Below are positions 162 to 57,055 of a stretch of DNA of 64,000 bases, one piece after another. Source of the stretch: Natrinema saccharevitans (GTDB taxonomy: Archaea; Halobacteriota; Halobacteria; Halobacteriales; Natrialbaceae); the NCBI RefSeq assembly GCF_001953745.1, contig NZ_LWLN01000001.1:1426001-1490000 (forward strand). Reading direction: 5' to 3'. The notes beneath the pieces are model-generated. The model worked only from the letters and a program-made list of their open reading frames with translations, made no database searches and was not told the origin of the DNA. The position numbers and the translations under genes were made by a program. Position 1 is the stretch's first letter. Each line of letters starts with the position of its first letter.

Positions 162-1246
162 GCGATCGAGCGGAGGTGCTCGGTCGTCCGTTCGACGGTC
201 GTCCGCCACGCGTAGTCGTCGTCGAGACCCGGGACCCGCTCGTCCGTTCCGAGCCACTCGGTGACCTGCGCCGCGATCGACTCGCCGGCGTCGATATCGA
301 CCAGCGAACCCCGACCGGCGACCAGGTCCTCGAGTTGGTCGAGCTGCGAGCAGACGACCGGCAGTCCCGAACTGACGGCCTCGAGGACCGTCCGCGGGAC
401 GCCCTCCGCTCGGCTCGGAAGCACGAGCGCGTCCCCGCTGCGGTAGATCTTGGGCATCTCGTCGTAGGGTACGTGGCCCAGAAAGTGGACCGAGTCGTCG
501 ATATCCAACTCTCGAGCGAGTGCCTCGAGGTCGTCCCGCAACGGCCCGTCACCGCACAGATAGAGGTGAGCGTCGGGGTATTCCCGCTGGATCCGCGGCA
601 ACGCCTCGAGCGCCACTGATGGGCGTTTGCCGTCCACTAATCGACCGACGAAGAGGACGACCGGACTCGTCTCGTCGATCGATGCGCTCGGCTCCCCCTC
701 GGGGGTGAACCGCTCCGTATCGATCCCGTTCGAGACGACGTCGATCCGACTCGAGACGCCGAACTCCCGTACTCGCTCCCGATCCGTGTCAGTATAACAG
801 AACACCACGTCGGCCTGATCGAACGTCCACCGACCGAGCGTTCGCAGGTACAGCCGGAAGACGTTCTCGGGGGCGCTTTGCGAGTAGAGGCCGTGGTTCG
901 TAATCGCCAGCGGGAGATCTCCGAAACGGCGTTTCAGTGCCGCCAGATTCGTTGAGAAGTACAGGTGCGAGTGAGCGTGGACGACATCGAACGCGTCGGC
1001 CGTCGCCAGATAGTTGGCGACGCCGGGGCTGATGTCGTTCCCCAGCAACGTCGCCGCCGGATCGTACCGGACCACCGTATACCCGTCCCGGGTTTCGACG
1101 TGGGGGAGGTCGGGATCCGACCGCACCGTTAGGACGGTCACGTCGTGACCCATCGCCGCCTGATCGCGACTCATCGCGTGGACGTGATACTGTCCACCGC
1201 CCTTCGTATCGGGATAGAGTTTCTGTGCGACGCGAAGAATACGCAT
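155..1246 (-). CDS. Family GT4 glycosyltransferase
   Basis: This 363-residue protein has the GT-B layout. The N-terminal half holds the glycine-rich acceptor loop (KGGGQYHVH, about residues 15-23). The C-terminal half is a Glycos_transf_1 domain with VVLFVGRLVDGKRP near 197-210 and the donor-binding EX7E motif in EGVPRTVLE near 288. GT4 enzymes move a sugar from a nucleotide donor with retention of configuration. Here it probably acts on the cytoplasmic face in making a surface polysaccharide or N-glycan. The start ATG fits the family, which begins with MRILRVAQ-like strands. It is divergent from the epimerase gene, and the two share an AT-rich intergenic stretch. Its exact donor and acceptor cannot be read from the sequence. 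Confidence 0.85.
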   Translation of the reverse strand: MRILRVAQKLYPDTKGGGQYHVHAMSRDQAAMGHDVTVLTVRSDPDLPHVETRDGYTVVRYDPAATLLGNDISPGVANYLATADAFDVVHAHSHLYFSTNLAALKRRFGDLPLAITNHGLYSQSAPENVFRLYLRTLGRWTFDQADVVFCYTDTDRERVREFGVSSRIDVVSNGIDTERFTPEGEPSASIDETSPVVLFVGRLVDGKRPSVALEALPRIQREYPDAHLYLCGDGPLRDDLEALARELDIDDSVHFLGHVPYDEMPKIYRSGDALVLPSRAEGVPRTVLEAVSSGLPVVCSQLDQLEDLVAGRGSLVDIDAGESIAAQVTEWLGTDERVPGLDDDYAWRTTVERTTEHLRSIAY

Positions 1247-1284
1247 TCGTTAGGGAGTCTAAATCGAACACGTATGAGTATGCT

Positions 1285-1375
1285 GATCTATTATAACCTA
1301 GTCCAAACATTTATAATTAATTTCTTTGCGGAAGGTTATAAAGCGGTCGCGCATAGGCCGGAACGGTTAAGCGGG
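1285..1375. promoter_or_regulatory. Divergent AT-rich promoter region
   Basis: The gap between the divergent glycosyltransferase and epimerase genes is strongly AT-rich. TATA-like boxes include TTATAATAG (read on the minus strand, about 1290-1298), TTTATAATTAA near 1309-1319 and GGTTATAAAG near 1333. A weaker GGTTAAGCG at 1366-1374 lies about 32 bases before the epimerase ATG. These plausibly drive the two genes outward. Confidence 0.4.
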
Positions 1376-1401
1376 TGTATTCATAGAGAGAAGAATAGTT
1401 A

Positions 1402-2382
1402 ATGCGCATACTCGTAACTGGAGGATGCGGTTTTATCGGCTCTCATCTGGTTGATTTCGTGCTCGAGAGAACGAATCACGACATCGTGGTTCTCGATAAC
1501 TTCTCGACGGGAACGAAAACCAACTTGCCGGACTCGGATCGACTCGAGGTCGTCGATGGCGATGTCTGTGACGACCGAGTGGTCTCGAAACAGGTCGGCC
1601 GCGCGGATACCGTGTACCACCTCGCGGCCGCCGTCGGCGTCCAGAAGATCATCGATTCACCGCTTGACTCCCTGCGGACGAACCTACGCGGAACCGAACT
1701 GGTACTCGAGACCGCAGCCGAAGACGAAACGCAGGTGTTTATCGCGTCGTCGTCCGAGGTGTACGGGAAGTCCGAAGCGGTTCCGTTCGCGGAGTCGGAC
1801 GACCGAGTGCTCGGTCCGACTGAGAGCCTCCGCTGGAGTTACGCCTCCGCAAAGGCAGTCGACGAGGCGTTGGCGCTCGCGTACAACCGGAAACGCGAGC
1901 TCCCCGTTGTCGTCGGACGGTACTTCAACATCGTCGGCCCACGTCAGACGGGCCAGTACGGGATGGTCATCCCGACGTTCGTCGAGCAAGCGCTTACAGG
2001 TGAACCACTGACCGTCTACGGAGACGGAACACAGACGCGGAGTTTCACACACGTCCGAGATGCCGTTCGAGTGACGTACCAACTACTACACTCACTCGAG
2101 GCCTACGGCTCGGTGTTCAACATCGGCTCGCCGCATCCGACGAGCATCAACGATCTCGCGGAACGAATCATCGAACTCACGGGCTCCGACTCCGAAATCA
2201 AACACATCCCGTACGAAGTTGCCTTCGACGAGAACTTCGAAGAACCGCAGCAGCGTGAACCGGATGTCACGAAACTCGAGGAAACGTTGGGACGGCATCC
2301 GGAAACGGAACTGGATCGCATTCTCGAGGACGTGATCGAGGAACGACGGTCCAAACTCTGGGCGGAAGGGGAGATTCAATGA
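1402..2382 (+). CDS. NAD-dependent sugar-nucleotide epimerase/dehydratase
   Basis: This 326-residue protein is an extended short-chain dehydrogenase. It has the Rossmann motif TGGCGFIGSH at residues 6-15, an acidic NAD-binding position in VVLDNFSTG near 30-38, SSSEVYG near 117-123, and the catalytic pair in SYASAK (YxxxK) near 147-152. Relatives include UDP-glucose 4-epimerases, UDP-glucuronate decarboxylases and GDP/dTDP-sugar dehydratases. The substrate cannot be fixed here. It overlaps the next gene by ATGA, so the epimerase and nucleotide-sugar dehydrogenase are very likely co-translated. Together they suggest production of an activated uronic acid or amino sugar for a surface glycan. Confidence 0.88.
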   Translation: MRILVTGGCGFIGSHLVDFVLERTNHDIVVLDNFSTGTKTNLPDSDRLEVVDGDVCDDRVVSKQVGRADTVYHLAAAVGVQKIIDSPLDSLRTNLRGTELVLETAAEDETQVFIASSSEVYGKSEAVPFAESDDRVLGPTESLRWSYASAKAVDEALALAYNRKRELPVVVGRYFNIVGPRQTGQYGMVIPTFVEQALTGEPLTVYGDGTQTRSFTHVRDAVRVTYQLLHSLEAYGSVFNIGSPHPTSINDLAERIIELTGSDSEIKHIPYEVAFDENFEEPQQREPDVTKLEETLGRHPETELDRILEDVIEERRSKLWAEGEIQ

Positions 2383-3746
2383 CCGGCATTCGAGAGCGGA
2401 TCGAAGAACGGTCAGCGACCGTCGCGGTGGTCGGTATCGGATACGTCGGTCTACCCCTGTCCTGTCACTTCACGAATGCCGGGTTTCAGGTCATCGGATT
2501 CGATATCGACGAAGACCGAATTCGGTCCCTGCAGCGTGGAAACTCGTACATCGATGATATCGACGACGAGCGACTCGAACGGGCGCTCGACGACGGTTTT
2601 CTTCCCGCAAGTGATCCAGACGTGCTCTCCGAAGCAGATGCGTTCGTCGTCGCTGTCCCGACGGGTGTTCAAGGGGGTGAGCCCGATATGGAAGCCGTCA
2701 GGCAGGCGAGTCGGACCGTTGGTGAGCATGCACCCGATCGCGAAATTTTGTACATCTGTAGCAGTACAGTCTTCCCAGGAGCGGTCGACGAAATCGTTCG
2801 GCCGGCACTCCGTGTAGGTGGTCGGCATCCGGGCGAAGATACCCTCGTAGCCGTTGTTCCGGAACGGATCAACCCCGGTGGTCGGTACGAGTTCGAGGAT
2901 ATTCCGCTGATCGTCGGTGCAGACAGCGACGAGGAGCGGGCCGCTGCACAGGAACTGTTCAACGCTGTCACCGTCGGTACGGCTCCGGTATCGTCGACGA
3001 AAGCTGCAGAGATGGCCAAGACGCTCGAGAACACCTATCGTATGGTGAATATCGCTCTCGTTAACGAGCTCGCTCGCCACGCCGAAACAATCAACGTCGA
3101 CATCTGGGAAGTGATTGAAGCTGCGGGGACGAAGCCGTTCGGCTTTCAGGAGTTCTATCCCGGCCCCGGCGTCGGCGGCCACTGTATTCCGGTCGATCCA
3201 CAGTTTTTGACCTGGTTGGGACGCCAACACGACGAACCGCTTCGATTAGTCGAGCAGGCAAATGGTATCAACGAGACGATGCCCGCCCACATCGTTGATC
3301 AAGTAGAGACCGGACTCAAAGCACGTGGGGACTCGATTCAAGACGCTTCGGTTACGGTCCTCGGGCTCACATACAAGCCGAACGTTGCTGATATTCGTAA
3401 TTCACCTGCGATGGCGATCTGTGAGAACCTCCGTGCGAAGAACGCGACTATTACAGCTATCGATCCGTACGTCGATACCACGATAATCGCCGGCGAAACG
3501 GTCGAACCGAGTAGCCATATCGATCGAGACCTGATCGCCGACGCTGACGCCACGCTCCTGTTGGTCGATCACGACGCCTTCGAATACGATGCCCTCAAGA
3601 ACGCACCCTTCGTTTTCGATGCACAGAATACACTGCCAGATGAAACATCGATGCCAGTGCTCCGACTCGGTGACGGCGAGTCGTTAGAAACCACTCACTC
3701 ACGTTCGACGAGTTCGGTGACGTCTTCAACGACCTTCCAGAGTTGA
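2379..3746 (+). CDS. UDP-sugar 6-dehydrogenase (WecC/UGD family)
   Basis: This 455-residue enzyme has the three-domain UDP-glucose/GDP-mannose dehydrogenase layout. The N-terminal Rossmann motif is GIGYVGLPL (residues 19-27). The central dimer domain carries Lys214 in EMAKTLENTYR. The catalytic cysteine is Cys269 in GVGGHCIPVDP, and a C-terminal domain begins at VTVLGLTYKPN. It oxidises C6 of a nucleotide sugar to the acid using two NAD+. The motif spacing is closest to UDP-N-acetyl-mannosamine dehydrogenases, but this is an inference. It overlaps the upstream epimerase by four bases. Its last 52 bases overlap the convergent sugar transferase. Confidence 0.9.
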   Translation: MTGIRERIEERSATVAVVGIGYVGLPLSCHFTNAGFQVIGFDIDEDRIRSLQRGNSYIDDIDDERLERALDDGFLPASDPDVLSEADAFVVAVPTGVQGGEPDMEAVRQASRTVGEHAPDREILYICSSTVFPGAVDEIVRPALRVGGRHPGEDTLVAVVPERINPGGRYEFEDIPLIVGADSDEERAAAQELFNAVTVGTAPVSSTKAAEMAKTLENTYRMVNIALVNELARHAETINVDIWEVIEAAGTKPFGFQEFYPGPGVGGHCIPVDPQFLTWLGRQHDEPLRLVEQANGINETMPAHIVDQVETGLKARGDSIQDASVTVLGLTYKPNVADIRNSPAMAICENLRAKNATITAIDPYVDTTIIAGETVEPSSHIDRDLIADADATLLLVDHDAFEYDALKNAPFVFDAQNTLPDETSMPVLRLGDGESLETTHSRSTSSVTSSTTFQS

Positions 3747-5131
3747 CGGATCAAAATCTTCAGGTCAAACAGCAGCGACTGATTGCGGATGTACTGGAGA
3801 TCATACTGGATTTTCTCGGCGGGCTCTTGACTCGTTGCGTCGTTGACTTGGGCGAGGCCAGTGAGACCAGGCTTGACGAACCATCGCTGTCGCCACTCGA
3901 TCGCCTCGTTTTCGAACTCGGGCTCCAGTTCCGTCTGTGCCGGTCGTGGACCGACGATACTCATATTTCCCGTCAAAATCGACCATAGCTGCGGAATTTC
4001 GTCGAGATGGGTCGTTCGAAGGAACGTTCCGAGTGTCGTTCGGCGATCGTTTTCGATGACCGTACCGACCTCACCCCCTCGTTTCGGTTTTAACGTTCTG
4101 AATTTCTTAATCTGGAACGTTTCGCCGTACAGATATGTCCGCTTCTGACTGAAGAAGACCGGTCCTTCACCCTCATGTTTAATCGCGAGGACGATAAGGA
4201 GGATAAGCGGTGAGAGAACGAACAGGGCTGTTCCTGAAACGATGATATCAAACACTCGTTTCATAATATAATCGAATGGGTCCCAGGGCTCCACCTCTAT
4301 ATTGACGAGCGTTCCAACTGCGTTCTCGGAAACAAGTACCTTATCCGTATACTCACGATGAACTTTTGCGTTGACACCATGCTCGTAGCAGGCATCGAGT
4401 GTACCGAAAAACTCCGCACGATCAGGGTGATGAAATGCGAGTACAACGGTGTCGATGTCGTACTCCACTAGCGTATCTTCGATTCGAGAAAGCCCTCCAA
4501 GTCGAGTGAGTGAGTCTAATTCCTCAAGCGTATCAATCTCACTTTCGATTTCCGTGAGATCGTCTTTTTGTACGGTAACGCCACCATCAGTGGCAGCGTT
4601 CCATCTAGTGGCAGTTGGACACAGATAGCCCAGCACGGACCCATTGATCTCAGGCGCGATCCGTTCGATCTGGACTAGATCGTCGCCGACGATCAGCGTG
4701 CGTCCGTCCGACCCGGTCGGTCGACGGCGGATCCAGACGAACCACGCGGGGATCAAGAGCATCAGTATCCCAACGATCATGACGAGCGTCGCCCGCGGCA
4801 ATCGATGGCTCCACTGGAAAAATCCAAGTGTTGCTAATGCGAGCCCCGCTACCCCGACTCGCTTTTGTGCGATGAACACCGTCTCGAGGATTCGACGGGG
4901 ACGGGGTTTGTAGAGCGGGAATAAACAGCCAGCAACGATACCGATGCTTAGAAACAACGCTAATTGCAGCGATTCCCCGGTCAGAAGAGTTACCTCGAGG
5001 CGATTGAAGAGCGGAACGTAGGTGGTGAACAGATGTTGAGACACCGGATGGTTAGCGACAGTAATAGCGATACCAGTCGTCAGCATTACTCCAATCAAAC
5101 TGACAATACGGTATCGCCATCCAGTGAACAT
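3695..5131 (-). CDS. Polyprenyl-phosphate sugar-1-phosphate transferase (WbaP/ExoY type)
   Basis: The chosen ATG at 5131 gives 478 residues. A TATA box (GTTTATATC on the minus strand, 5157-5165) lies about 30 bases before it, which argues against the longer frame that starts at 5317. Several membrane helices fill the first ~130 residues. A CoA-binding-like middle domain follows, then the bacterial sugar transferase domain with KRVFDIIVSG, KKFRTLK, LDEIPQLWSILTG and SIVGPRP motifs. The family loads the first sugar phosphate onto a lipid carrier to start glycan assembly. The 3' end runs 52 bases into the opposing dehydrogenase gene. The lipid acceptor (dolichyl or other polyprenyl phosphate) is inferred. 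Confidence 0.88.
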   Translation of the reverse strand: MFTGWRYRIVSLIGVMLTTGIAITVANHPVSQHLFTTYVPLFNRLEVTLLTGESLQLALFLSIGIVAGCLFPLYKPRPRRILETVFIAQKRVGVAGLALATLGFFQWSHRLPRATLVMIVGILMLLIPAWFVWIRRRPTGSDGRTLIVGDDLVQIERIAPEINGSVLGYLCPTATRWNAATDGGVTVQKDDLTEIESEIDTLEELDSLTRLGGLSRIEDTLVEYDIDTVVLAFHHPDRAEFFGTLDACYEHGVNAKVHREYTDKVLVSENAVGTLVNIEVEPWDPFDYIMKRVFDIIVSGTALFVLSPLILLIVLAIKHEGEGPVFFSQKRTYLYGETFQIKKFRTLKPKRGGEVGTVIENDRRTTLGTFLRTTHLDEIPQLWSILTGNMSIVGPRPAQTELEPEFENEAIEWRQRWFVKPGLTGLAQVNDATSQEPAEKIQYDLQYIRNQSLLFDLKILIRQLWKVVEDVTELVERE

Positions 5132-5156
5132 TCGATACAAGCGATTGCAGGGAAAT

Positions 5157-5165
5157 GATATAAAC
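5157..5165 (-). promoter_or_regulatory. TATA box deciding the sugar transferase start
   Basis: GTTTATATC on the minus strand is centred about 30 bases before the ATG at 5131. That is the spacing of a leaderless haloarchaeal transcript. It excludes the upstream in-frame ATG at 5317. Confidence 0.6.
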
Positions 5166-5327
5166 TTGCTGAATATGTTGTGGTGGGGGGAGGGGTTGAT
5201 TCTATCCTCTAGCGAGTGGGTGTCGATTGCCTGATGACGGTCGTTAGTTATATTCGACCAGATATCGGGAGAACAGAGATCACTTGCGAAGTGAATCCGG
5301 TCCTCTACTACCCGCAATCCCGGGGAG

Positions 5328-6401
5328 TTACGATTGCAGCACTAACGGTTCGTACCAGTCACGATTCGCACGGAACCACTCGATGTACTGCGCAACGCCC
5401 TGGCGAATCGACGTCGTCGGCTCGTAGCCGACCAGTTCGCGGGCTTTCGAGACATCCGCGTGCGTGTGCTGGGCGTCGCCCATCGGCTGCTCGGCGTACT
5501 CGAGACCGAGCGACGGATCGATCGTGTCCCGAATGAGTTCCGCGAGCGTGTGGATCTCGATGTTGCCTGTCGAGCCGACGTTGAGAATTTCGCCGTCGGC
5601 GCTATCGTCGGTCATGAGCGTCCGGTTGACGCCGACGATGTCGTCGATATACGTGAAGTCTCGCGTCTGTGACCCGTCGCCGTAGACGACTGGCGGCTCG
5701 CCGTTCAGACACCGGGCGGTAAAGTTCGAGATCGCCATATTGGGCCGCATACGCGGACCGTAGACGGTGAAGTAGCGTAGCGCGACCGTCGGGAGGCCGT
5801 AGACCTCGTGGTAGACGCGCGCGTACTGCTCGCCGGCGAGTTTCGAGACGCCGTAGGGGCTCACGGGGGTCGTGGGGTGTGCTTCGTCGTAGGGCAGGTA
5901 CTCGGGTTTCCCGTAGACCGAGGAGGAACTCGCAAGGACAATGCGCTCGACATCCGTCTTGCGGGCCGCGTCAAGCACGTTCAGTGTGCCGTCGACGTTG
6001 ATGTCATTGGGTTTCCGCGGATCGTCGACACTCGTCCGAACGCCCGCCTGGGCTGCCTGGTGGTAGACGATATCGGCGTCGGCGACCAGCCGCTCGACGA
6101 GGTCGGCGTTTCGAACGTCACCGTCGGCGAACTCGTAGCTCCCGCCCGTATCCGACGCCGGAACCTCGGTCTCGTCGTACTCGAGTCGTGTCTGCCCGCC
6201 GTCGACTCGTGTGTCGTCGGCACCAGCGCTGTTGGACTCCCGCGCTGCCGCGCGACCGAGCTCGATGTTCTGTCGTTTGATCCCGACAGCGTAATACGGG
6301 TCAAGATTGTCCAGAACAGTTACATCGTGGCCGTCACGCGCGAACGACTCGGCAAGATGGCCGCCGATGAAGCCGGCACCTCCTGTGACGAGAATGTCCA
6401 T
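5328..6401 (-). CDS. NAD-dependent epimerase, UDP-glucuronate 4-epimerase-like
   Basis: The ATG at 6401 gives 357 residues and places TGGAGFIGGH at residues 6-15, as in the family. A 15-residue extension would start at 6446. Other motifs are the NAD-binding VLDNLDPYY, ASSSSVYG, and the catalytic SPYGVSK (YxxxK) before AGEQYARVY. Extended SDR enzymes with YYAVGIKRQNIE after the second strand are typical of UDP-glucuronate epimerases, which interconvert glucuronate and galacturonate. An insert rich in Asp, Ser and Thr follows the third strand (about residues 50-80). It is one of three sugar-nucleotide SDR genes in 9 kb. A palindromic repeat lies just upstream. Confidence 0.85.
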   Translation of the reverse strand: MDILVTGGAGFIGGHLAESFARDGHDVTVLDNLDPYYAVGIKRQNIELGRAAARESNSAGADDTRVDGGQTRLEYDETEVPASDTGGSYEFADGDVRNADLVERLVADADIVYHQAAQAGVRTSVDDPRKPNDINVDGTLNVLDAARKTDVERIVLASSSSVYGKPEYLPYDEAHPTTPVSPYGVSKLAGEQYARVYHEVYGLPTVALRYFTVYGPRMRPNMAISNFTARCLNGEPPVVYGDGSQTRDFTYIDDIVGVNRTLMTDDSADGEILNVGSTGNIEIHTLAELIRDTIDPSLGLEYAEQPMGDAQHTHADVSKARELVGYEPTTSIRQGVAQYIEWFRANRDWYEPLVLQS

Positions 6402-6478
6402 CGGTGTAGTGGGTTCCAGCAAGTGATCAAAAGGCTGTTGATTCAACTGCTCGGACTTTGTACCCAGAGTAAGACGAA

Positions 6479-6564
6479 CTATAGTAGCCGCTGAAAGTCA
6501 TTGCACACCTGATCAAACGACGGCGTTGCGATCAGTGTGTGAATCGTTTCAGCGACTACTATAG
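6479..6564. repeat. Palindromic repeat, copy A (86 bp)
   Basis: The ends CTATAGTAGCCGCTGAAA and TTTCAGCGACTACTATAG are inverted repeats with 17 of 18 positions paired. The inner part is also an imperfect palindrome (CACACCTGATC facing GATCAGTGTGTG). The whole element recurs in inverted orientation at 25587-25671, nearly identical, and as a diverged copy at 49697-49781. It has no coding capacity. Size and symmetry suggest a MITE-like non-autonomous element. Confidence 0.85.
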
Positions 6565-6926
6565 CCGTCCGACCGTCTGCGCGTCGTATACGGCGCTGAT
6601 GCAAGCGAGCGGCCGCAACCGAGAGGAGAAACCCTGTCCTCGGTCAGACGCAGTCCGCCCTTGACCTGTAGCGTCGTTTGGCTTCGTGGCAGTCTTCTGG
6701 ATAGCTGATATCGATTCGCCACTCTTGAGCCCGATCGCGTCGATAGTTCGATCTGGCTGAATCAACAGGTCGATCAGTTCCCTGCCCGACGCTGTGAGTA
6801 ACGCCGTCGGTTCGAGTGTCGGCTTCGTGCTGTCGGGCTTCGACCCAAAACTGAGGCCAATGCTGACATGATAATACCTATAGTCCCGGGACGGACTTGT
6901 GCCTGCATGAACGGTTGGAGGGAGCC
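6565..6926. other. Intergenic region without a recognised gene
   Basis: A minus-strand frame of 68 codons from its first ATG (6559-6765), open further upstream, crosses this region. It has no recognisable domain, and part of it lies in the repeat arm. The sequence is less GC-biased than its neighbours. The last bases hold the ribosome binding site GGAGGGAG at 6917-6924 for the gene starting at 6927. I see no promoter or RNA with confidence. Confidence 0.4.
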
Positions 6927-7787
6927 ATGCCGCTGATCGACGACGAGGGGAACCTCTTCGGCGTCGTCAACGTCGTCGACGCACTCGCTGCCTGTCTCGT
7001 CGTCGCGGTGCTGGTCGCGGGCGTCGCCGTCGTCGGCGTCCTTGGCGGCGGCAACGGGGCTGTCGGGCCCGAGACGGAGTCCAACGAATCTAACGGTACA
7101 GCGACTCCCAACTCCACTAATGCATCCGTCGACGACGGCCAGCCGGCGACACAGTATGCCACGATCGACCTGGGAACGCAAGCGGACTATGTCGCCGACG
7201 CCGTCGACGAAGGCGATCGGGCGGTCGTCGCCACGGCCGGACACAACCTGACGATCACCGACGTATACGTCTCGCCGACGACCGACGGTGACGGTCACGT
7301 GATCGTCCGTGCCGAGATCGATGGCGAGTATCCATCGACCGAGGCGTCAGCGACGGCGTTCCAGTTCGATACCACCCCAGTCCGGATCGGCGAACAGCTC
7401 ACGATCGACACGGCCGATTACGTCCTTACGGGCACGGTCCAGCGGCTCGAGGACGAGGGCACGGCCCTCACGACGGAGCGAACGACCGTGGGGCTCGACG
7501 CAAACGTCTCGGCGTCGACGGCCGATGCGATGGAGACCGGTGACGAGTACCGGTTCGCCGGGCAAACGATCGCGACCGTGACCGATGTCGAGACGACCGA
7601 ATCGGAGCGTTCGTCGACCGTTGCCGTCGACCTCGAGGTCGACCTCGTGACGTTCGACCGAGCCGGGACGCGTACGTTCGGCGGGCGAGCGCTCGATATC
7701 GGCTCGCGGATCACCCTTCGGACCGATCGCTACGACGTCAGCGGTGAACTGACTCGTCGCGGCGCGTCGGAACCGATCACGGACTAG
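6927..7787 (+). CDS. DUF4330-type single-pass membrane protein
   Basis: The chosen start gives MPLIDDEGNLFGVVNVVDA, the typical opening of DUF4330 proteins, and has GGAGGGAG a few bases upstream. The 286 residues comprise a short cytoplasmic head, one membrane helix (about residues 17-37), a low-complexity Asn/Ser/Thr linker (about 45-70), and a large beta-rich outer region. That region holds two similar segments around PVRIGEQLTIDTADY and LDIGSRITLRTDRY. Function is unknown. The next gene begins two bases after the stop, so the two form an operon. Neighbouring polysaccharide genes hint at an envelope role, but that is only context. Confidence 0.75.
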   Translation: MPLIDDEGNLFGVVNVVDALAACLVVAVLVAGVAVVGVLGGGNGAVGPETESNESNGTATPNSTNASVDDGQPATQYATIDLGTQADYVADAVDEGDRAVVATAGHNLTITDVYVSPTTDGDGHVIVRAEIDGEYPSTEASATAFQFDTTPVRIGEQLTIDTADYVLTGTVQRLEDEGTALTTERTTVGLDANVSASTADAMETGDEYRFAGQTIATVTDVETTESERSSTVAVDLEVDLVTFDRAGTRTFGGRALDIGSRITLRTDRYDVSGELTRRGASEPITD

Positions 7788-19483: not shown

Positions 19484-20314
19484 CTACGCCCGGCCGGCGG
19501 CGTCCAGCAGCGCGTCGTACGCGTCCGCGTACGCGCCGGCGATCCGTGCGGGGTCTTTCCGTTCGTCGGCCCCGAGCGCCGGCAGTCGAACCCGCTCGAG
19601 TGGATCGAGATACTCGAGGGCGTCGGGGACGCGTTTCTCGACGGCACCGTCTCGCGGGCTGGAGCTGGCGACCTCGCAGGCCCGGCAGTAGCGGTCTCCC
19701 GAATAGAGCCGGACGCGACCGGGTTCGACGGCCGCGACGGCCGCGATCGACGCCGGCTCGAGGGAGTCGAGCGGGAGCGCGATGTCGCTGTAAGACTCGA
19801 CGACGGCGACCTCCGTGGCCTCGATCTCGGCGGCAAGTCGCTCGAAGGCGGGGACGTACTCCCGCTCGGCGAGGGCGTTGAACTCGGCAACGGTCTCGAC
19901 GGGGACGGCGTCGGAAAGCGGGAGCGCCTCGGCGACCCGATCGGGAACATCGGCGGTGGCGTTGCGAACGAACAGGGGGTCGTCGGCCTCGCGACCGATC
20001 CGATCGACCACGAACTCCCGGTTCGAGCGGCCGAGCAGTCCCGTCCCGCCGTCGGGAGCGGGCCGCCACAGCCGGTGGACGGGGTTGAGCCGCTCGGGCG
20101 GCCGCTCGCGGCCGTCGGCCGCCGAGAGCCGCGCGGCGTCTTTGCCGTACAGCCGCCCGTCGGAAAGGGCTCGACGACAGTCGTCGTGGTCGAACCAGAA
20201 GTCGTTGCCGGCGCGGGGCTTGTAGCCGACCGCGCCGGTCCGCTCGAGCAGGCCGGCCGAGAACGTGGTCTTGCCGGCATCGACGCGGTCGGCACCGACC
20301 ACGAGCAAGATCAT
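19484..20314 (-). CDS. P-loop NTPase of unknown function
   Basis: The ATG at 20314 gives 276 residues with a P-loop right at the start (VVGADRVDAGKTTFSAGL, residues 5-22), like BioD and related amidoligase-type NTPases. Middle strands include EVAVVESYSDIALPL. A Cys pair, YCRACE near 212-217, and a C-terminal helical region follow. No specific family could be named. Its start overlaps the stop of the upstream 88-residue gene by four bases, so the two are translationally coupled and probably work in the same process. Confidence 0.65.
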   Translation of the reverse strand: MILLVVGADRVDAGKTTFSAGLLERTGAVGYKPRAGNDFWFDHDDCRRALSDGRLYGKDAARLSAADGRERPPERLNPVHRLWRPAPDGGTGLLGRSNREFVVDRIGREADDPLFVRNATADVPDRVAEALPLSDAVPVETVAEFNALAEREYVPAFERLAAEIEATEVAVVESYSDIALPLDSLEPASIAAVAAVEPGRVRLYSGDRYCRACEVASSSPRDGAVEKRVPDALEYLDPLERVRLPALGADERKDPARIAGAYADAYDALLDAAGRA

Positions 20315-20577
20315 TCCCGCAGGCCGTAGTAGCCGGGTTCGTCCTCGTCGCGGGGTTCGGCGACCACGAGGTCCTCGGCGTTGGTCATCACCCACGGAAT
20401 CGCCCAGTCGAGCAGGATGTCCTCCGTCTCGCGGTCGATGTCGGCGTCCGGCTCGAGGCCCTGAAGCATGCGGGCGATCTCGTAGACGGTGTACATCCGG
20501 TCCTCCTCGAGCAGTTCCGCGGGGGTGTAGAAGTCACACGGCGGGAGACTCTCGAACTCCGATTTGGGTACGGGCAT
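20311..20577 (-). CDS. Small conserved haloarchaeal protein (DUF5827-like)
   Basis: This 88-residue acidic protein reads MPVPKSEFESLPPCDFYTP at its start and contains LLEEDRMYTVYEIARMLQG, an HTH-like helical stretch, then WAIPWVMTNAEDLVVAEP. I recall it as a short family restricted to Halobacteria (DUF5827); the number is from memory. The box CATTTAGG on the minus strand (20602-20609) is about 28 bases before the ATG. The stop overlaps the P-loop gene by ATGA. Function is unknown. Confidence 0.65.
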   Translation of the reverse strand: MPVPKSEFESLPPCDFYTPAELLEEDRMYTVYEIARMLQGLEPDADIDRETEDILLDWAIPWVMTNAEDLVVAEPRDEDEPGYYGLRE

Positions 20578-20703
20578 ACGCCCTCGTACCGCCGGCCGAC
20601 GCCTAAATGATTCGTTCGGGAGTCGGGCCGGACCGCGAGTACCTGCGCACGGCCGGCGTCGAGACGAGAGCCGATCCCCGCGAGTGCGGTGGCGCGCGCT
20701 GGG

Positions 20704-20941
20704 CCGCGGTTCGCCACCGTGGCGAACCGCGGCGTAACGCTGCGCGAGGTTGTCGCGAGTGAAACGAGCGACTGCTCGGAAGACGCGGTGCGTCTTCCGT
20801 TGGATGAGCGCGGGAGCAACGCGACCGAGCGTTAGCGCGGGACCGCAGGTCCCGCGAACCGTCCGAATCGTGCGAGGCCTCCGGCCTCGCATACCATGTG
20901 AACGGGCTGAAAGCCCGTGAACAGACGGCGCGGAGCGCCGT
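20704..20941. repeat. Array of six perfect triloop hairpins
   Basis: Six consecutive inverted repeats, each with a three-base loop and fully paired stem, lie at 20704-20732 (13 bp stem), 20777-20799 (10 bp), 20836-20856 (9 bp), 20872-20890 (8 bp), 20902-20918 (7 bp) and 20925-20941 (7 bp). Stem sequences differ from each other, so this is not a direct-repeat or CRISPR array. It fills the gap between the DUF5827-like gene and the FAD/Fe-S dehydrogenase stop, with no coding sequence. It leads directly into the conserved core motif at 20945. Confidence 0.85.
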
Positions 20942-20944
20942 GAG

Positions 20945-20997
20945 GAGTAATCCGGCTGGGGAGGGCGTGGCCTCCGTGTCGCCGCGGTAGCAGGACG
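20945..20997 (+). repeat. Conserved CGGCTGGGGAGG core element, copy 1
   Basis: The element contains CGGCTGGGGAGGGCGTGG, then CCGTGTCGCCGCGGTAGCA. CGTGGC pairs with GCCGCG (one G-T pair) to form a hairpin. Close relatives lie at 31661-31710 and 56926-56975, all on the plus strand, sharing the same order of motifs. It follows the six-hairpin array directly. Confidence 0.75.
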
Positions 20998-21039
20998 GCT
21001 CGCGCCGCTGTCCACTCGACGAACCCGGCAACTCAGCGT

Positions 21040-24000
21040 CTACCTATCCGAGTCGAGCCCTCGAGCGAGCAGTTCGACGGGATGGGCCGGCCGATCGCAC
21101 CCCTCGAAGTCGCCGACCTGCGTCCGACAGGAGGTGCCGGGCGCGGCGACGACCGACTCGCCGTCGTCGCCCGATTGTTCGGCCGCGCTCGCCTCGAGTC
21201 GCTCCCGTAGCATCGACCCCATCGCTTTCGAGAGATCGTAGTGTTCCGCCTCGTAGCCGAAGCTGCCGGCCATCCCACAGCACGTCGAGTCGACGGGATC
21301 GACGGGATAGCCCGCCCGCCGGAGGACGCCGACGGCGTGGTGGTCCGCGCCGCGCGCTTTCTGGTGGCAGTGGCCGTGGAACGTCACCGGCGTCCCCGTC
21401 GTCATCGACTCGTCGAACGCGATCGCCTCGTCCAGCCGTCGCTCGTCGAGGTACTCACAGACTCCGTAGGCGTTCGCCGCGAGCCGCTCGACGCGGTCGT
21501 CCGCGAGCAGCGACCGATACTCGTCGACGACCATCGCCGCGTCCGAGGGCTCGACGAACAGGACCGACCAGCCCCGCTCGAGGGAGGGCTCGAGATCGTC
21601 GAGCAGGTCGCGGCCCCGTTCGGCCGCGGTCTCGAGCAACCCTTCGGAGTAGGCGGCCCGCCCGGTCGGGCCGAGATCCGGGACCGCGACGCGGACGTCC
21701 GCGGCCTCGAGGAGTTCGACGGCGGCCGTCCCGACCTCGGGATTCGAGTAGTTGGTGTCCGTGTCGGGAAAGAGGACGACGCCGGCCGTCGCGTCTTCGG
21801 GGGCCACCCGCGGGCCGCCGCGCTGCTGGAACCACTCGACCAACGACTCTCGCCGGAACGTCGGTAACGTCCGATCGGCCGCGATTCCGAGGGTCTCCTC
21901 GAGGACCGTCCGCGCGCCCGGCAGGTCCGTCGCGCGGTTCGCCACCGGTGCGAACGCACTCCCCAGCGACGCCAGTCGGTCGACGTTCGCGAACAGTCGC
22001 TCGCGCAAGTTCGCGCCCTCCCGCTCGTGATACCCGTGTTTGACTTCGGCCTTGAGCTTCGCGAGATCGACGCCGGTCGGGCAGTCGCTCTGACAGCCCT
22101 TGCAGCCGACACACAGGTCGAGGACCTCGGACTGGAACCGCTCGCTGTACAGCTCCTCGGGGTCGATCTCGCCGCTGATCGCCGCCCGGAGCAGATTGGC
22201 CCGGCCGCGCGTGGTCGCGATTTCCGCCCCGGTCGCCCGGTAGGTCGGACACATCACGTCGCCGTCGGTCTGGCGACAGGTCCCACAGCCGTTACAGAGT
22301 TCGACGAGTTCAGAGAAGCTGCCCTCGTCGTCGAACTCGAGCGCCGTCCGAGGCTCGAGCGAGGCGTAGTCCGGCCCATACCGCAACTGCTCCCGGAGAT
22401 CGGTCGGATCGTCGTCCCGGTAGACGACCTTGCCGGGGTTCATGCGCCAGTCGGGATCGAAAGTGGACTTCAACTCCCGAAACGCGGCCCAGAGATCGGG
22501 GCCGTACAGCTTGGGGTTGAACTCCGTCCGCGCGAGGCCGTCGCCGTGTTCGCCCGAAAACGAGCCGTTGTGTTCGCGAACGAGGTCGGTCACGTCGTCG
22601 GCGATGGCCCGCATTTTCTCGACGTCCTCGTCCTCTTTGAGGTTCAGGACCGGCCGGATATGGAGCGTCCCGACACCGGCGTGAGCGAAGTACGCGGCCT
22701 CGGTGTCGTGGGCCTCGAGGATCTCCTGAAACCCCGAGACGTACGCCGCCAGTTCGGCCGGCGGGACGGAGGCGTCCTCGACGAAGGGGTAGGGTTTCGG
22801 ATCGCCGTCCATGCTCATCAACAGCGGGATGGCGGCCTTCCGGAGCTTCCAGAGGCGGTCCTGTTTCGCGGCGTCGAACGCCTCGAGCGAGTCGAACGCC
22901 GCCCCGTCACCGACGAGGTCGGCCGTCGCGGTTTCGACGGCGTCCGGCAGGTCGTCGACGACCTCCGAGTCGAACTCGAGCAGCAGCGCCGCCGCGGTCC
23001 CGTCGGGGATCGGCTCCGCGTACTCGGCGTACTCCGCCGACTCGCCGGCCAGCCGGAACACCTCGTCGTCCATCAACTCGACCGCGCTGGCCTCGAGTTC
23101 GAGCGCCTCGGGGACGGCGGCCAGCGCCTCGAGCAGGTCGTCGTAGCAGCAGACGACGAGCGCGGTCTCGTCCGGTCGGGTCACAAGCGAGAGCGTGGCT
23201 TCGACGACGACGCCGAGGGTTCCTTCGGCCCCCACGAGCAGTTTGGAGAGGTTGATGATCCGGGCTCCGTCCGCACGCTCCCTGAGAACCTTCTGCAGGT
23301 TGTAGCCGCTGACGCTGCGCTTGAGATCGGGATAGCGCGCCTCGATCTCGTCGGCGTTGTCCTCGACGAGCGCCCGCACGATGCGGTAGATTTCCGCCTC
23401 GCGGTCGTCTTTCGAGACGATCTCGTCCCACTCCGGTCCGTCGAGGACGACGTCCCGGGTACGGATCAACGAGCCGTCGGCCAGCACCACCTCGCACTCC
23501 TCGACGTAGGCGTCGGTGATCCCATACCGGACCGAGTGGGCACCCGTCGAGTTGTTCCCGATCCCGCCGCCGATCGTCGCCCGGTTCGAGGAGGCCGGAT
23601 CGGGCGCGAACTGCAGGCCGTACGGCTCGAGGGCGGCGTCGAGGTCGTCCTGGACCACCCCCGGCTGGACGACGGCGGTCCGGCCGTCGGGATCGATCTC
23701 GCGGACGTCGTCCATGTGTCGCGAACAGTCGAGGACGATACAGCCCGGTCCCACGGTCTGGCCGGCCAGCGACGACCCCGCACCCCGGGGGAGGACCGGC
23801 GCGTCGTGGTCGGCCGCGACCGCCATCGCGGCGCGGACGTCGGCGGTGTCCCGCGGGAAGACGACGCCGGCCGGCTGTGCGCCGTAGATGCTCCCGTCCG
23901 TCGCGTAGAGGACCCGCGTGTACTCGTCGAATCGAACGTCGCCGTCGACGGCCGTCCGCAAGTCGGCCGCAAGTTCCCCGCCGGCATCACCGCCGCCCGT

Positions 24001-29370: not shown

Positions 29371-31632
29371 ATGAACGCGGACGCGGACGTCGTTACGCTC
29401 GCGCGAACACTCCGTGCGGAAGCCGAGCGCGCCAACGAGCGCCGGGTGCTGGTCCTCGCGGGGAGCCGCGAGCGCGGGTACGATCGACTCGAGTCGGTCC
29501 TCGACACCCTTTCGGTTCCGATCACGGCGACGACGCTGGTCGGGCCCGCCGACCGGCTTCGCTGCGAGCAGCTTCCTCAGGCCAACGCGGGCGAGTTGCT
29601 GGGAACGACGCGAGACGTGATCGCCGTCGACGCCCACGACGAACTCCGGCCCAACGCCGTCGGGAAGGTCGTCGGCGCGGTCGACGGCGGCGGCCTCCTC
29701 GTCTTGCTCGTCCCGCCGCTCGAGGCGTGGCCGGACCGACGCGACGGGTTCGACGACTCGCTGGCCGTTCCGCCGTTCGAACTGGCCGACGTCACCGGCC
29801 GATTCCGACGGCGGTTCGTCGGGACGTTGCGGGCCCACCGCGGTATCGCCATCGTCGACCTCGAGTCGGAGCGGATCGAGGCCGACGGCCTGACCCAGCC
29901 GGCCCCGCGGCTGCCGACGGCCGATCCCGCGCCACCGCCGGATCGTCGGTTCCCGGCCGCCGCCTACGAGGCCTGCTTGACTGGCGATCAGAGCGACGCC
30001 GTCGCTGCCCTCGAGTCGCTCGCCGAGGCCGATCGGGCCGTCGTCCTCGAGGCCGACCGGGGGCGGGGGAAATCCAGCGCGGCGGGGCTCGCCGCGGGTG
30101 CGTTCGCCGCCGACGGCGAGGACGTCCTCGTGACCGCCCCTGCGTCCCGGAACGCAGCGGAACTGTTCGACCGCGCCGGCGAACTCTGCCGGACGCTCGA
30201 GGGCGACGACACGACGGTCGAGTCCCGCCGGATCGAGACGAGCGCGGGCGGTTCAGTCCGGTTCCGCGAGCCGACTGCCGCCGCGGACGCGATCGACGCG
30301 GCCGATATCGTCCTCGTCGACGAGGCCGCCGCGCTCCCCGTGGGGACCCTCGAGTCGCTGCTGGCCGCCGATCGGGTCGCGTTCGCGACGACGATCCACG
30401 GCTACGAGGGGGCCGGCAGGGGTTTCTCGGTCCGGTTCCGGGACCGGCTGGCCGAAAGCGACCACGAGGTGACCGACTGCCGGCTCGTCGAGCCGATCCG
30501 GTACGCCGGGGGCGACCCCGTCGAGGTGTGGGCCTTCCGCGCGTTGCTGCTCGACGCCCGGCCGCCGATCGAGCCGCTGGTCGCCGACGCCGACCCCGAC
30601 TCCGTCGACTATCGCCGGCTCGATCCCGACGACCTCCTCGCGGACGAGCGTCTGCTCCGGGAGGCGTTCGGCCTGCTCGTCCTCGCCCATTACCGGACCG
30701 AGCCCAACGACCTCGCGCGCCTGCTCGACGCGCCCAACCTCGAGGCCCGCGCGCTGGTACGGGACGGCCACGTCGTCAGCGTCGCCCTGCTCGCCCGGGA
30801 GGGAAACCTGCCGCCCGACAGCCGCGCGATGATGTACGAGGGCGGCCGGATCCGGGGCAACATGCTGCCGGACGTGCTGACCAGCCAGCTGCGCGACGAG
30901 GCGGCCGGCGAGCCCGCGGGCCTGCGGGTCGTCCGCATCGCGACCCACCACGCGGCCCGCTCGCAGGGGCTGGGCTCGCTGTTGCTCGAGCGCGTTCGCG
31001 AGGAGTTCCGGGACGCCGCCGACTGGCTCGGCACCGGCTTCGGCGCGACCCCCGGCCTGCTCGCGTTCTGGCGGGAAAACGGCTATCGGACGGTCCACGT
31101 CTCGACGACCCGCAACGACTCGAGCGGCGAGTACTCCGCGCTCATGCTCGCGCCGACGACGGCCGCGGGCCGGCGGCTCCGCGACCGCCACGCCGAGTGG
31201 TTCGCCGACCGGTTCGGGGCCCTTTGTTCGGACTCGCTCGACGACCTCGCGCCCGACGTGGCCCGGGCGGTTCTCCGGAGCGTCGACGCCAACGCCGCGC
31301 CGTCGCTCTCGCTGTCCGATCACGAGTGGCGGGTCGTCGCCGGGGCCGCCTACGGGCCGGGGCTGTTCGACGTCGACCCCGGACCCTTCCGCGACCTCGT
31401 CGTCCGATACCTCGTCGACGACCCCGACGACGTCGACCTGACCGCCCGCGAGGAGCGGCTGCTCGTCCTGCGAGCCCTGCAGGCCCGGGACTGGGAGTCC
31501 GTCGCCGACTGCCTCGAGTACCACTCTCCCGGCCAGTGTATGCGCGCGCTGGGCGATGCGTTCTGCCCGCTGGTGGATCGCTACGGAGCCGACGCGGCGA
31601 TCGAGGTCCGGGAGCGGTTCGCCGGCGAGTGA
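29371..31632 (+). CDS. tmcA: tRNA(Met) cytidine acetyltransferase
   Basis: This 753-residue protein has the TmcA layout. Residues 1-165 are a DUF1726-like domain. An RNA-helicase-like ATPase follows, with Walker A EADRGRGKSSAAG (about 228-240) and Walker B VLVDEAAALP. A GNAT acetyltransferase domain has RIATHHAARSQGLGSLLLERV (about 526-546). The C-terminal tRNA-binding tail completes it. It uses acetyl-CoA and ATP to make N4-acetylcytidine at the wobble base of elongator tRNA-Met; archaeal homologues may also acetylate other RNAs. It stands alone and is followed by repeat core copy 2. Confidence 0.95.
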   Translation: MNADADVVTLARTLRAEAERANERRVLVLAGSRERGYDRLESVLDTLSVPITATTLVGPADRLRCEQLPQANAGELLGTTRDVIAVDAHDELRPNAVGKVVGAVDGGGLLVLLVPPLEAWPDRRDGFDDSLAVPPFELADVTGRFRRRFVGTLRAHRGIAIVDLESERIEADGLTQPAPRLPTADPAPPPDRRFPAAAYEACLTGDQSDAVAALESLAEADRAVVLEADRGRGKSSAAGLAAGAFAADGEDVLVTAPASRNAAELFDRAGELCRTLEGDDTTVESRRIETSAGGSVRFREPTAAADAIDAADIVLVDEAAALPVGTLESLLAADRVAFATTIHGYEGAGRGFSVRFRDRLAESDHEVTDCRLVEPIRYAGGDPVEVWAFRALLLDARPPIEPLVADADPDSVDYRRLDPDDLLADERLLREAFGLLVLAHYRTEPNDLARLLDAPNLEARALVRDGHVVSVALLAREGNLPPDSRAMMYEGGRIRGNMLPDVLTSQLRDEAAGEPAGLRVVRIATHHAARSQGLGSLLLERVREEFRDAADWLGTGFGATPGLLAFWRENGYRTVHVSTTRNDSSGEYSALMLAPTTAAGRRLRDRHAEWFADRFGALCSDSLDDLAPDVARAVLRSVDANAAPSLSLSDHEWRVVAGAAYGPGLFDVDPGPFRDLVVRYLVDDPDDVDLTAREERLLVLRALQARDWESVADCLEYHSPGQCMRALGDAFCPLVDRYGADAAIEVRERFAGE

Positions 31633-31660
31633 CCTCATATCCGACTGAACGGAGGGAGGG

Positions 31661-31710
31661 AATCGGCTGGGGAGGGCGTGGCAATTCCGTGTTGCCACGG
31701 TAGCACAACG
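31661..31710 (+). repeat. Conserved CGGCTGGGGAGG core element, copy 2
   Basis: AATCGGCTGGGGAGGGCGTGG is followed by a perfect hairpin: CGTGGCAA pairs with TTGCCACG around the loop TTCCGTG. GTAGCACAACG ends it. The copy lies 29 bases after the tmcA stop and lacks an upstream hairpin array. Confidence 0.75.
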
Positions 31711-31767
31711 CTATCTTCCGTTCCGACCTCGAGTTAGATCCGCCGATTCACAGTTCGTCAAAGACGC

Positions 31768-56628: not shown

Positions 56629-56925
56629 ACCGTCGGTCTATCGTCGCCCTCTCGGACTCGGGGATCGCTCCCCTACACGTATCGCACTCGGACCTACCCC
56701 TGTCTGCTACTTAAGGGCAACGAAAGACAGCCAGTTCGGATGTGGGTCGCTCGCACAACTATTTTGCCTGCTATGTGTGGCGCGCGCTGGCGGTCGACCG
56801 AGCGTTGCGAGGCCGAACGCAGTGAGGTCTCGAAAAGCGAGCGGTGACCGAAGGGAACCGTGACCCGAGCGAGGGCGACCGTCGATACCGCGCGAGGGGT
56901 GAGCGAACGCCGTTTGGCGTGAGCG
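56629..56925. other. Gap upstream of tRNA-Ser with imperfect hairpins
   Basis: Besides the likely promoter of the tRNA-Ser/rps13 unit (near 56711-56719, minus strand), the stretch 56770-56925 begins GCGCGCTGG, as does the region before the hairpin array at 20690. It holds looser inverted repeats such as ACGCC/GGCGT (near 56907-56920). No open frame looks real. Confidence 0.4.
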
Positions 56926-56975
56926 AATCGGCTGGGGAGGATGTGGGTACTCCCTGTTGCCACGATAGCAAAACG
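56926..56975 (+). repeat. Conserved CGGCTGGGGAGG core element, copy 3
   Basis: AATCGGCTGGGGAGGATGTGG is followed by CCTGTTGCCACGATAGCA. GTGG pairs with CCAC. It is the most diverged of the three copies but keeps the order of all motifs. It lies between the tRNA-Ser promoter and the moaA stop. Confidence 0.7.
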
Positions 56976-57055
56976 TTCCGTTTTGTCTCGGGTGGATTCA
57001 CCGCTGGGGCTCGGTAAGGACGTTCGAAATTCGAACGTGAGAAATAAAATCGGAT

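Follow-up and report, generated by a model that had tools for sequence, protein, structure and literature searches.

What is the dense array of hairpins between two genes of Natrinema saccharevitans, and does it act as RNA, as DNA or as part of a repeat? We addressed this question for a stretch of 64,000 nucleotides, here called the window. An earlier note, made from the letters alone, had described six consecutive perfect inverted repeats ahead of a core motif and had offered three readings: a structured RNA, a transcription-stop or insulator array and a replicating repetitive element.

The hairpin array

All six inverted repeats, fully paired and with three-nucleotide loops, were recovered at 20703-20941 and are followed, as described, by the core CGGCTGGGGAGG at 20953-20964. 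In order, they are located at 20703-20733 (14 bp, loop CCG), 20777-20799 (10 bp, loop GGT), 20836-20856 (9 bp, loop GCA), 20871-20891 (9 bp, loop TCC), 20902-20918 (7 bp, loop GAA) and 20925-20941 (7 bp, loop GGA). The first stem had been given as 13 bp and the span as 238 rather than 239 bases. In 5000 first-order Markov sequences generated for the same segment, such hairpins numbered 0.07 on average and at most 3, compared with the 6 observed, and just 19 occur in the entire 64-kb window. Folding z-scores of the array were -4.8 and -5.6 for the two strands as RNA, and -5.2 and -8.2 as DNA. Additional hairpins with tandem GA mismatches are interspersed among the perfect ones, and the feature as a whole extends beyond its first proposed limits, from 20685 to 20997. 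The neighbours are those originally named, both on the minus strand: the gene for an FAD/4Fe-4S oxidase ends at 21040 and the DUF5827 gene (PF19145, E 6e-46) starts at 20577. Identical direct repeats with spacers are absent from the array, and the exclusion of CRISPR or tandem duplication holds. The accompanying view that the stems are unrelated does not, since two of the hairpin pairs represent one module type, the one lying inside the other.

A class-wide repeat family

The six hairpins are the changeable interior of one copy of a dispersed, intergenic haloarchaeal repeat. The core occurs in 30 exact copies in the genome, compared with 2 for a reversed-pattern control, and exact cores were present in 17 of the 21 genomes first searched. 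Nearly all 30 core loci share one architecture: TGCGGTGGCGCGCGCTG, a hairpin H1, GCGCGAGG, which closes an outer stem, a hairpin H2 (consensus arms GATGA...GAATC), the core, a hairpin H3 (GTGGC...GCCAC) and the tail GATAGCAGGAC. A minimal copy of ca. 145 nt combines the conserved ends and core with a variable H1 and an H2 made of GA/GA-separated steps. The covariance-model search proposed for this locus was carried out with a model built from 12 minimal copies. It returned 54 matches in the genome, equivalent to ca. 47 loci once split long copies were merged, and matches in 111 of 194 sampled Halobacteria genomes (E 1e-4). The array is part of a class-wide repeat whose ends and GC-rich core are conserved and whose interior is structured and hypervariable. 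The reading as a replicating repetitive element stands insofar as a dispersed repeat family is meant.

No model match was found outside Halobacteria in a phylum-wide sample, where all eight positive genomes belong to one order. Members from other families retain GCGCGCG...GCGCGAGGGATGAG...ATCGGCTGGGGAGG and differ in H1 and tail. Matches in plasmid collections were all haloarchaeal. Viral carriage was considered and rejected, as phage records contained no element match and viral contigs no match to a strict right-end pattern. Searched against Rfam 15, the window matched only tRNAs at the gathering score, and a relaxed threshold gave chance-level matches. In the literature searched, we found neither an earlier description of the repeat nor its sequence strings. 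It is a real, unannotated, modular repeat: over half of the sampled haloarchaeal genomes contain it, Rfam does not include it, and the matched public records do not annotate it. At L139 (3066-3182), a decayed copy was observed between metG and a decarboxylase-like gene, where G019, a genome of another family, has a tail-to-tail pair (L029). This may be an ancient common site, or the coincidence could be due to chance.

Architecture of the window copy

The entire element (20685-20997, plus strand, as are all of its parts) has left and right ends common to the genome's other copies and consists of a skeleton and three two-hairpin modules. The covariance model matches it at 20685-20825 and 20921-20999. 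It begins with the conserved 5' end TGCGGTGGCGCGCGCTG (20685-20701), which is near-invariant in 29 copies. CGCGC at 20695-20699 pairs with GCGCG at 20742-20746 to form the outer stem, whose pairs are 95% kept and show two-sided changes. H1 is the first perfect hairpin (20703-20733), and its sequence varies among orthologous copies. Module A (53 nt, 20750-20802), docked at GAGG^GATGAGC, comprises a GA-mismatch hairpin (20753-20773) and a perfect hairpin (20777-20799). Comparison with minimal copies places the 5' part of the skeleton hairpin H2 (GATGAGC...GAGCG) at 20803-20831. Module B (20832-20948), docked at GCG^AATCGG, has its first hairpin at 20836-20856 and its second at 20925-20941 and is interrupted by the 58-nt module B' (20867-20924, hairpins at 20871-20891 and 20902-20918). 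Read from the sequence and compared with other copies, B' has the same order of parts as B, namely a perfect hairpin, an ACCAT linker and a GA-flanked hairpin. The core at 20953-20964 is followed by H3 (CGTGGC...GCCGCG, 20966-20986; helix 7 of A2, 92% of cells paired) and by the conserved tail GTAGCAGGACG (20987-20997), which was delimited by comparing the right ends of copies. The window copy can be read as the skeleton with A and B added, where B itself encloses a second B-type module.

Modules and orthologous sites

Copy lengths in the genome cluster near 145, 200, 258 and 315 nt, and the excess over the minimal copy consists of two-hairpin modules of ca. 53-64 nt. Modules A and B dock at the points given above, module D in the H1 loop and module C near the H2 end; the orientation of module C is opposite between L033 and L036.

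Close relatives carry the element at the same sites, where H1 has been replaced and gain or loss of modules has taken place at fixed docking points. The window site is occupied in G004, G103, G006, G210 and G010 and is without the element in G173, G005, G211, G207 and others. G103 has the bare skeleton, lacking module A. In G006 the skeleton is joined by B and in G010 by A; G210 carries D- and B-like modules, and another hairpin set is present in G004. Module A is docked at the identical point in G010 at the window site and in G103 at site L152. Pairwise alignment revealed a clean 61-nt insertion in G006 relative to G103 at the window site and a clean 59-nt insertion in G004 relative to G000 at site L152, both without target duplication and both at the same junction, at two loci and in two lineages. 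Site L146 exists in three module states (C in G000, D in G004, none in G103), site L154 has three modules in G103 only and site L134 has module B in G000 only, while complete replacement of H1 separates relatives at L158, L161 and L129. Across close relatives, individual loci occur both with and without a given hairpin module, a natural series in which the turnover of folded modules can be traced.

Across 33 orthologous comparisons, identity was 96% at the 5' end and 91% in the core with H3, compared with 83% and 75% in the flanks. Identity in H1 fell to as low as 35%, yet a hairpin was still formed. The skeleton is therefore old and conserved in place, with the hairpins as the changing part, though gene conversion between copies, rather than selection in place, could account for the conserved core. 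Eight further sites in four relatives yielded no precise empty site. G004, G006 and G103 have the element at most of them, and the flanks, too, have diverged where it is missing from G173. Whole-element insertion and the exact element ends are thus putative. Since the sampled copies are mostly common to the four closest species, whole elements are not very active there, while modules are.

Some observations concern the surroundings of these sites. The gene upstream of the window-site element (window 20311-20577) is a DUF5827 gene in G000 and G004 and a different gene in G103, G006, G210 and G010, which we take, from comparison of L100, L101, L103 and L104, to be of PIN type and RNA-ligase-partner-like. 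The element and the FAD oxidase gene stay constant while this upstream gene changes. Two copies are separated by a MITE-like insert with CTATAGTAGCCGCTGAAA...TTTCAGCGGCTACTATAG ends in the spacer of a tail-to-tail pair at L142 (ca. 2562-2648) and also at L193, and a similar insert adjoins the element at site L161 in G004. The tail-to-tail spacer at L059 (ca. 1355-1540, G173 contig 22) contains the adapter-like CTGTCTCTTATACACATCT plus an N and is likely an assembly artefact at a hairpin-rich spot.

Covariation and the H2 hairpin

Base-pair covariation, which had been suggested as a check on the array, is present among the repeat copies. In the 12-copy alignment, 21 of 32 pairs show two-sided changes, and the covariation score of 0.41, compared with 0.18 after shuffling, was reached in none of 500 shuffles. 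Sliding the pairing partners as a control lowered pairing to 23-42%. With 53 model hits, in an alignment that is fitted to the model, two-sided changes were seen in 29 of 32 pairs.

H2 is built of 2-bp steps alternating with symmetrical 2x2 loops of the form 5'-GA/5'-GA. Matches occurred in 17 of 41 genomes of the family and gave 72 unique H2 sequences. The steps are Watson-Crick in 89-92% of cases, compared with 53-61% after shuffling. The 2x2 loops are GA/GA in 184 of 198 cases, a count in which the outermost 5' GA is fixed by the search pattern; excluding the pattern-fixed loop, the count is 114 of 126. GNA triloops cap H2 in 43 of the 72 sequences, and most H2 lengths are 42 or 50 nt, a difference of one 8-nt step. 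Because the opposite strand would bear TC/TC, GA/GA pairing is restricted to one strand.

A probable folded single strand, as DNA or RNA

Overall, the best explanation, and one we regard as probable, is a modular repeat of the BOX/REPIN kind with a conserved skeleton that folds as a single strand, most likely of DNA. One strand would fold once it becomes single-stranded, most likely as DNA in replication or repair, and may adopt a stable branched fold with GNA loops capping its hairpins and with GA/GA helices. The unpaired core beside this fold would be the likely protein-binding part. Hairpin modules would be swapped between copies through the single-stranded state, for which a single-strand endonuclease/ligase and short-homology gene conversion are both candidates, and dependence of the host or the element on the skeleton is presumably why it persists.

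We lean towards the DNA form, with RNA as a possibility. DNA is favored because of the GNA triloops, the H1 tetraloops of GNNA rather than GNRA type (7 and 1 of 17, respectively, a purine being rare as the third base), the absent promoters and the parallel with Streptomyces telomeres. GNA-type loops are especially stable in DNA, and both GA tandems and GNA loops are found in RNA too. Against DNA, the outer stem has many G.T pairs, with 17 of 52 at one position, as does H3, where they reach 14 of 49, and RNA tolerates such pairs better. In H2, G.T (14) and A.C (8) cells do not differ greatly in number and thus do not indicate RNA-type tolerance. Whether compensatory change, GNA and GA/GA motifs report the folding of single-stranded DNA or of RNA can be asked here within one system.

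Gene context bears on two further explanations. The copies are intergenic. Of 47, 25 have an upstream gene on their own strand and 29 a downstream gene on the other strand (gene calls from a home-made caller), and the copies have no consistent orientation to genes. None of the 47 has a TATA-like box upstream, and TTTT within 40 nt downstream was found in only 3. The genome contains seven close pairs, all inverted tail to tail and placed in divergent, tandem and convergent gene contexts, and comparable pairs exist in relatives. A family of structured non-coding RNAs would consist of copies transcribed singly or within UTRs whose fold acts as RNA, for example as a protein sponge, in mRNA stability or in other control. 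The strong covariation, the frequent G.U in the outer stem and H3 and the restriction of GA/GA to one strand suit such a family, but the missing TATA-like boxes and T-runs, the free orientation to genes, the lack of an Rfam match and loops that are GNA instead of GNRA make it unlikely on balance. The structured RNA proposed originally is possible, with no support from promoters or Rfam, and stand-alone RNA genes were rejected for want of an upstream promoter signal. A terminator or insulator array, the other role first suggested, is very improbable: GC-rich intergenic hairpins, the frequently opposite downstream gene and a weak pyrimidine bias directly after the tail would agree with it, but the upstream gene is co-directional in barely more than half of the copies, T-runs are absent and the hairpins at a site turn over freely. 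Stops just 5' of several copies had suggested a terminator or 3' UTR element, a candidate that was dropped when the 47-copy gene calls gave no rule.

Within the preferred reading of a repeat folding as single-stranded DNA, a more specific version is tentative. It describes a hairpin cassette system in which a conserved non-coding skeleton occupies the same sites across species, ready-made two-hairpin modules repeatedly enter and leave fixed docking points, nest and are swapped there, the folded single-stranded DNA with its GA/GA helices and GNA loops would be the substrate of a putative haloarchaeal enzyme, and the core may have a host role.

Mobilization and related systems

No mobilizing enzyme was found. 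IS200-type mobilization was rejected, given that the number of PF01797 (Y1_Tnp) genes does not track copy number; past mobilization of IS200/IS605 type is possible. That the repeat is a PATE-type derivative of IS200/IS605, with two near-terminal hairpins recognized by the Y1 transposase TnpA, appears quite improbable. Its hairpins near both ends, its non-coding nature and its module junctions without target duplication would fit, and PATEs are abundant in Haloquadratum (PMC3119063). However, two high-copy genomes are without an intact PF01797 gene: Y1_Tnp matches are lacking in G089, which has 13 strict copies, and G190 has 26 strict copies and only a 38-residue Y1_Tnp remnant. Conversely, G057 has five Y1_Tnp matches and no strict copy. 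No copy was seen enclosing a transposase, and the modules would be left unexplained. Mobilization of REP/REPIN-type palindromes by a RAYT protein is barely conceivable. The seven tail-to-tail pairs recall REPIN doublets, but a survey of Y1 proteins saw only the IS200 subclass in Archaea (PMC6006769). REPs are defined as short (20-40 bp) palindromes tagged with GTAG or CGTC (PMC3733652), and the element, which is ca. 145 bp or more and has different ends, is much longer and lacks a GTAG-tagged short palindrome. With respect to MITE features, the left end GGTGGCGCGCGCTG and the right end GATAGCAGGAC are not inverted repeats, and no clean empty site was seen.

Among the known systems compared, a BOX-like modular repeat folding as a single strand, preferably of DNA, is the best fit. 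BOX elements of Streptococcus pneumoniae (boxA-boxBn-boxC) are likewise dispersed, intergenic, strongly folded and strain-variable, with conserved end modules and a variable internal number (PMC3049150), a design that the copy lengths and the presence or absence of modules reproduce here. In contrast to BOX, our element has an archaeal host, several two-hairpin module types with separate docking points that are nested rather than only in tandem, GA/GA mismatch helices and no target duplication at module junctions; the likeness is one of design, and no shared sequence is claimed. PATEs and SMR-A of Haloquadratum walsbyi are also short non-coding haloarchaeal repeats, and SMR-A elements enter palindromes that belong to other repeats and leave no target duplication (PMC3119063). 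PATEs have palindromes in common with IS605 transposons, and SMRs have inverted ends and a length of ca. 80-110 bp (PMC3119063), whereas the modules described here are two-hairpin units without such ends and are set apart by this description. The element is nearest to BOX in design and to Haloquadratum PATEs and small mobile repeats in host, and we claim membership of neither. REP/REPIN with RAYT resembles it in being intergenic, structured and arranged in inverted doublets, but the RAYT class was not observed in Archaea (PMC6006769), and our copies are mostly single and ca. 145-320 bp long. Streptomyces telomeres, with arrays of 5-8 GNA-capped hairpins of variable length that carry GCA or GGA loops with sheared pairing and fold as single-stranded DNA (PMC7205883), are similar in structure; they are chromosome ends, whereas the element is a dispersed interior repeat, and no homology is claimed.

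Other copies in the window

Two further copies are present on the plus strand of the window. The second (31610-31712, E 1.4e-15) is truncated on its left side by the end of the preceding gene, and the third (56773-56977, E 5e-28) carries one type D module in H1. N. thermotolerans A29 has a copy at the place matching the third, between the rps13 operon and moaA. A 987-kb record of this strain, CP031304.1, is labelled 'plasmid unnamed6' and looks chromosomal, with ribosomal protein genes, RNA polymerase subunit D and moaA. Elsewhere in the window, at 1001-7000, G+C falls to 52-59% across several kb, compared with 65-70% in the remainder, which suggests an integrated element.
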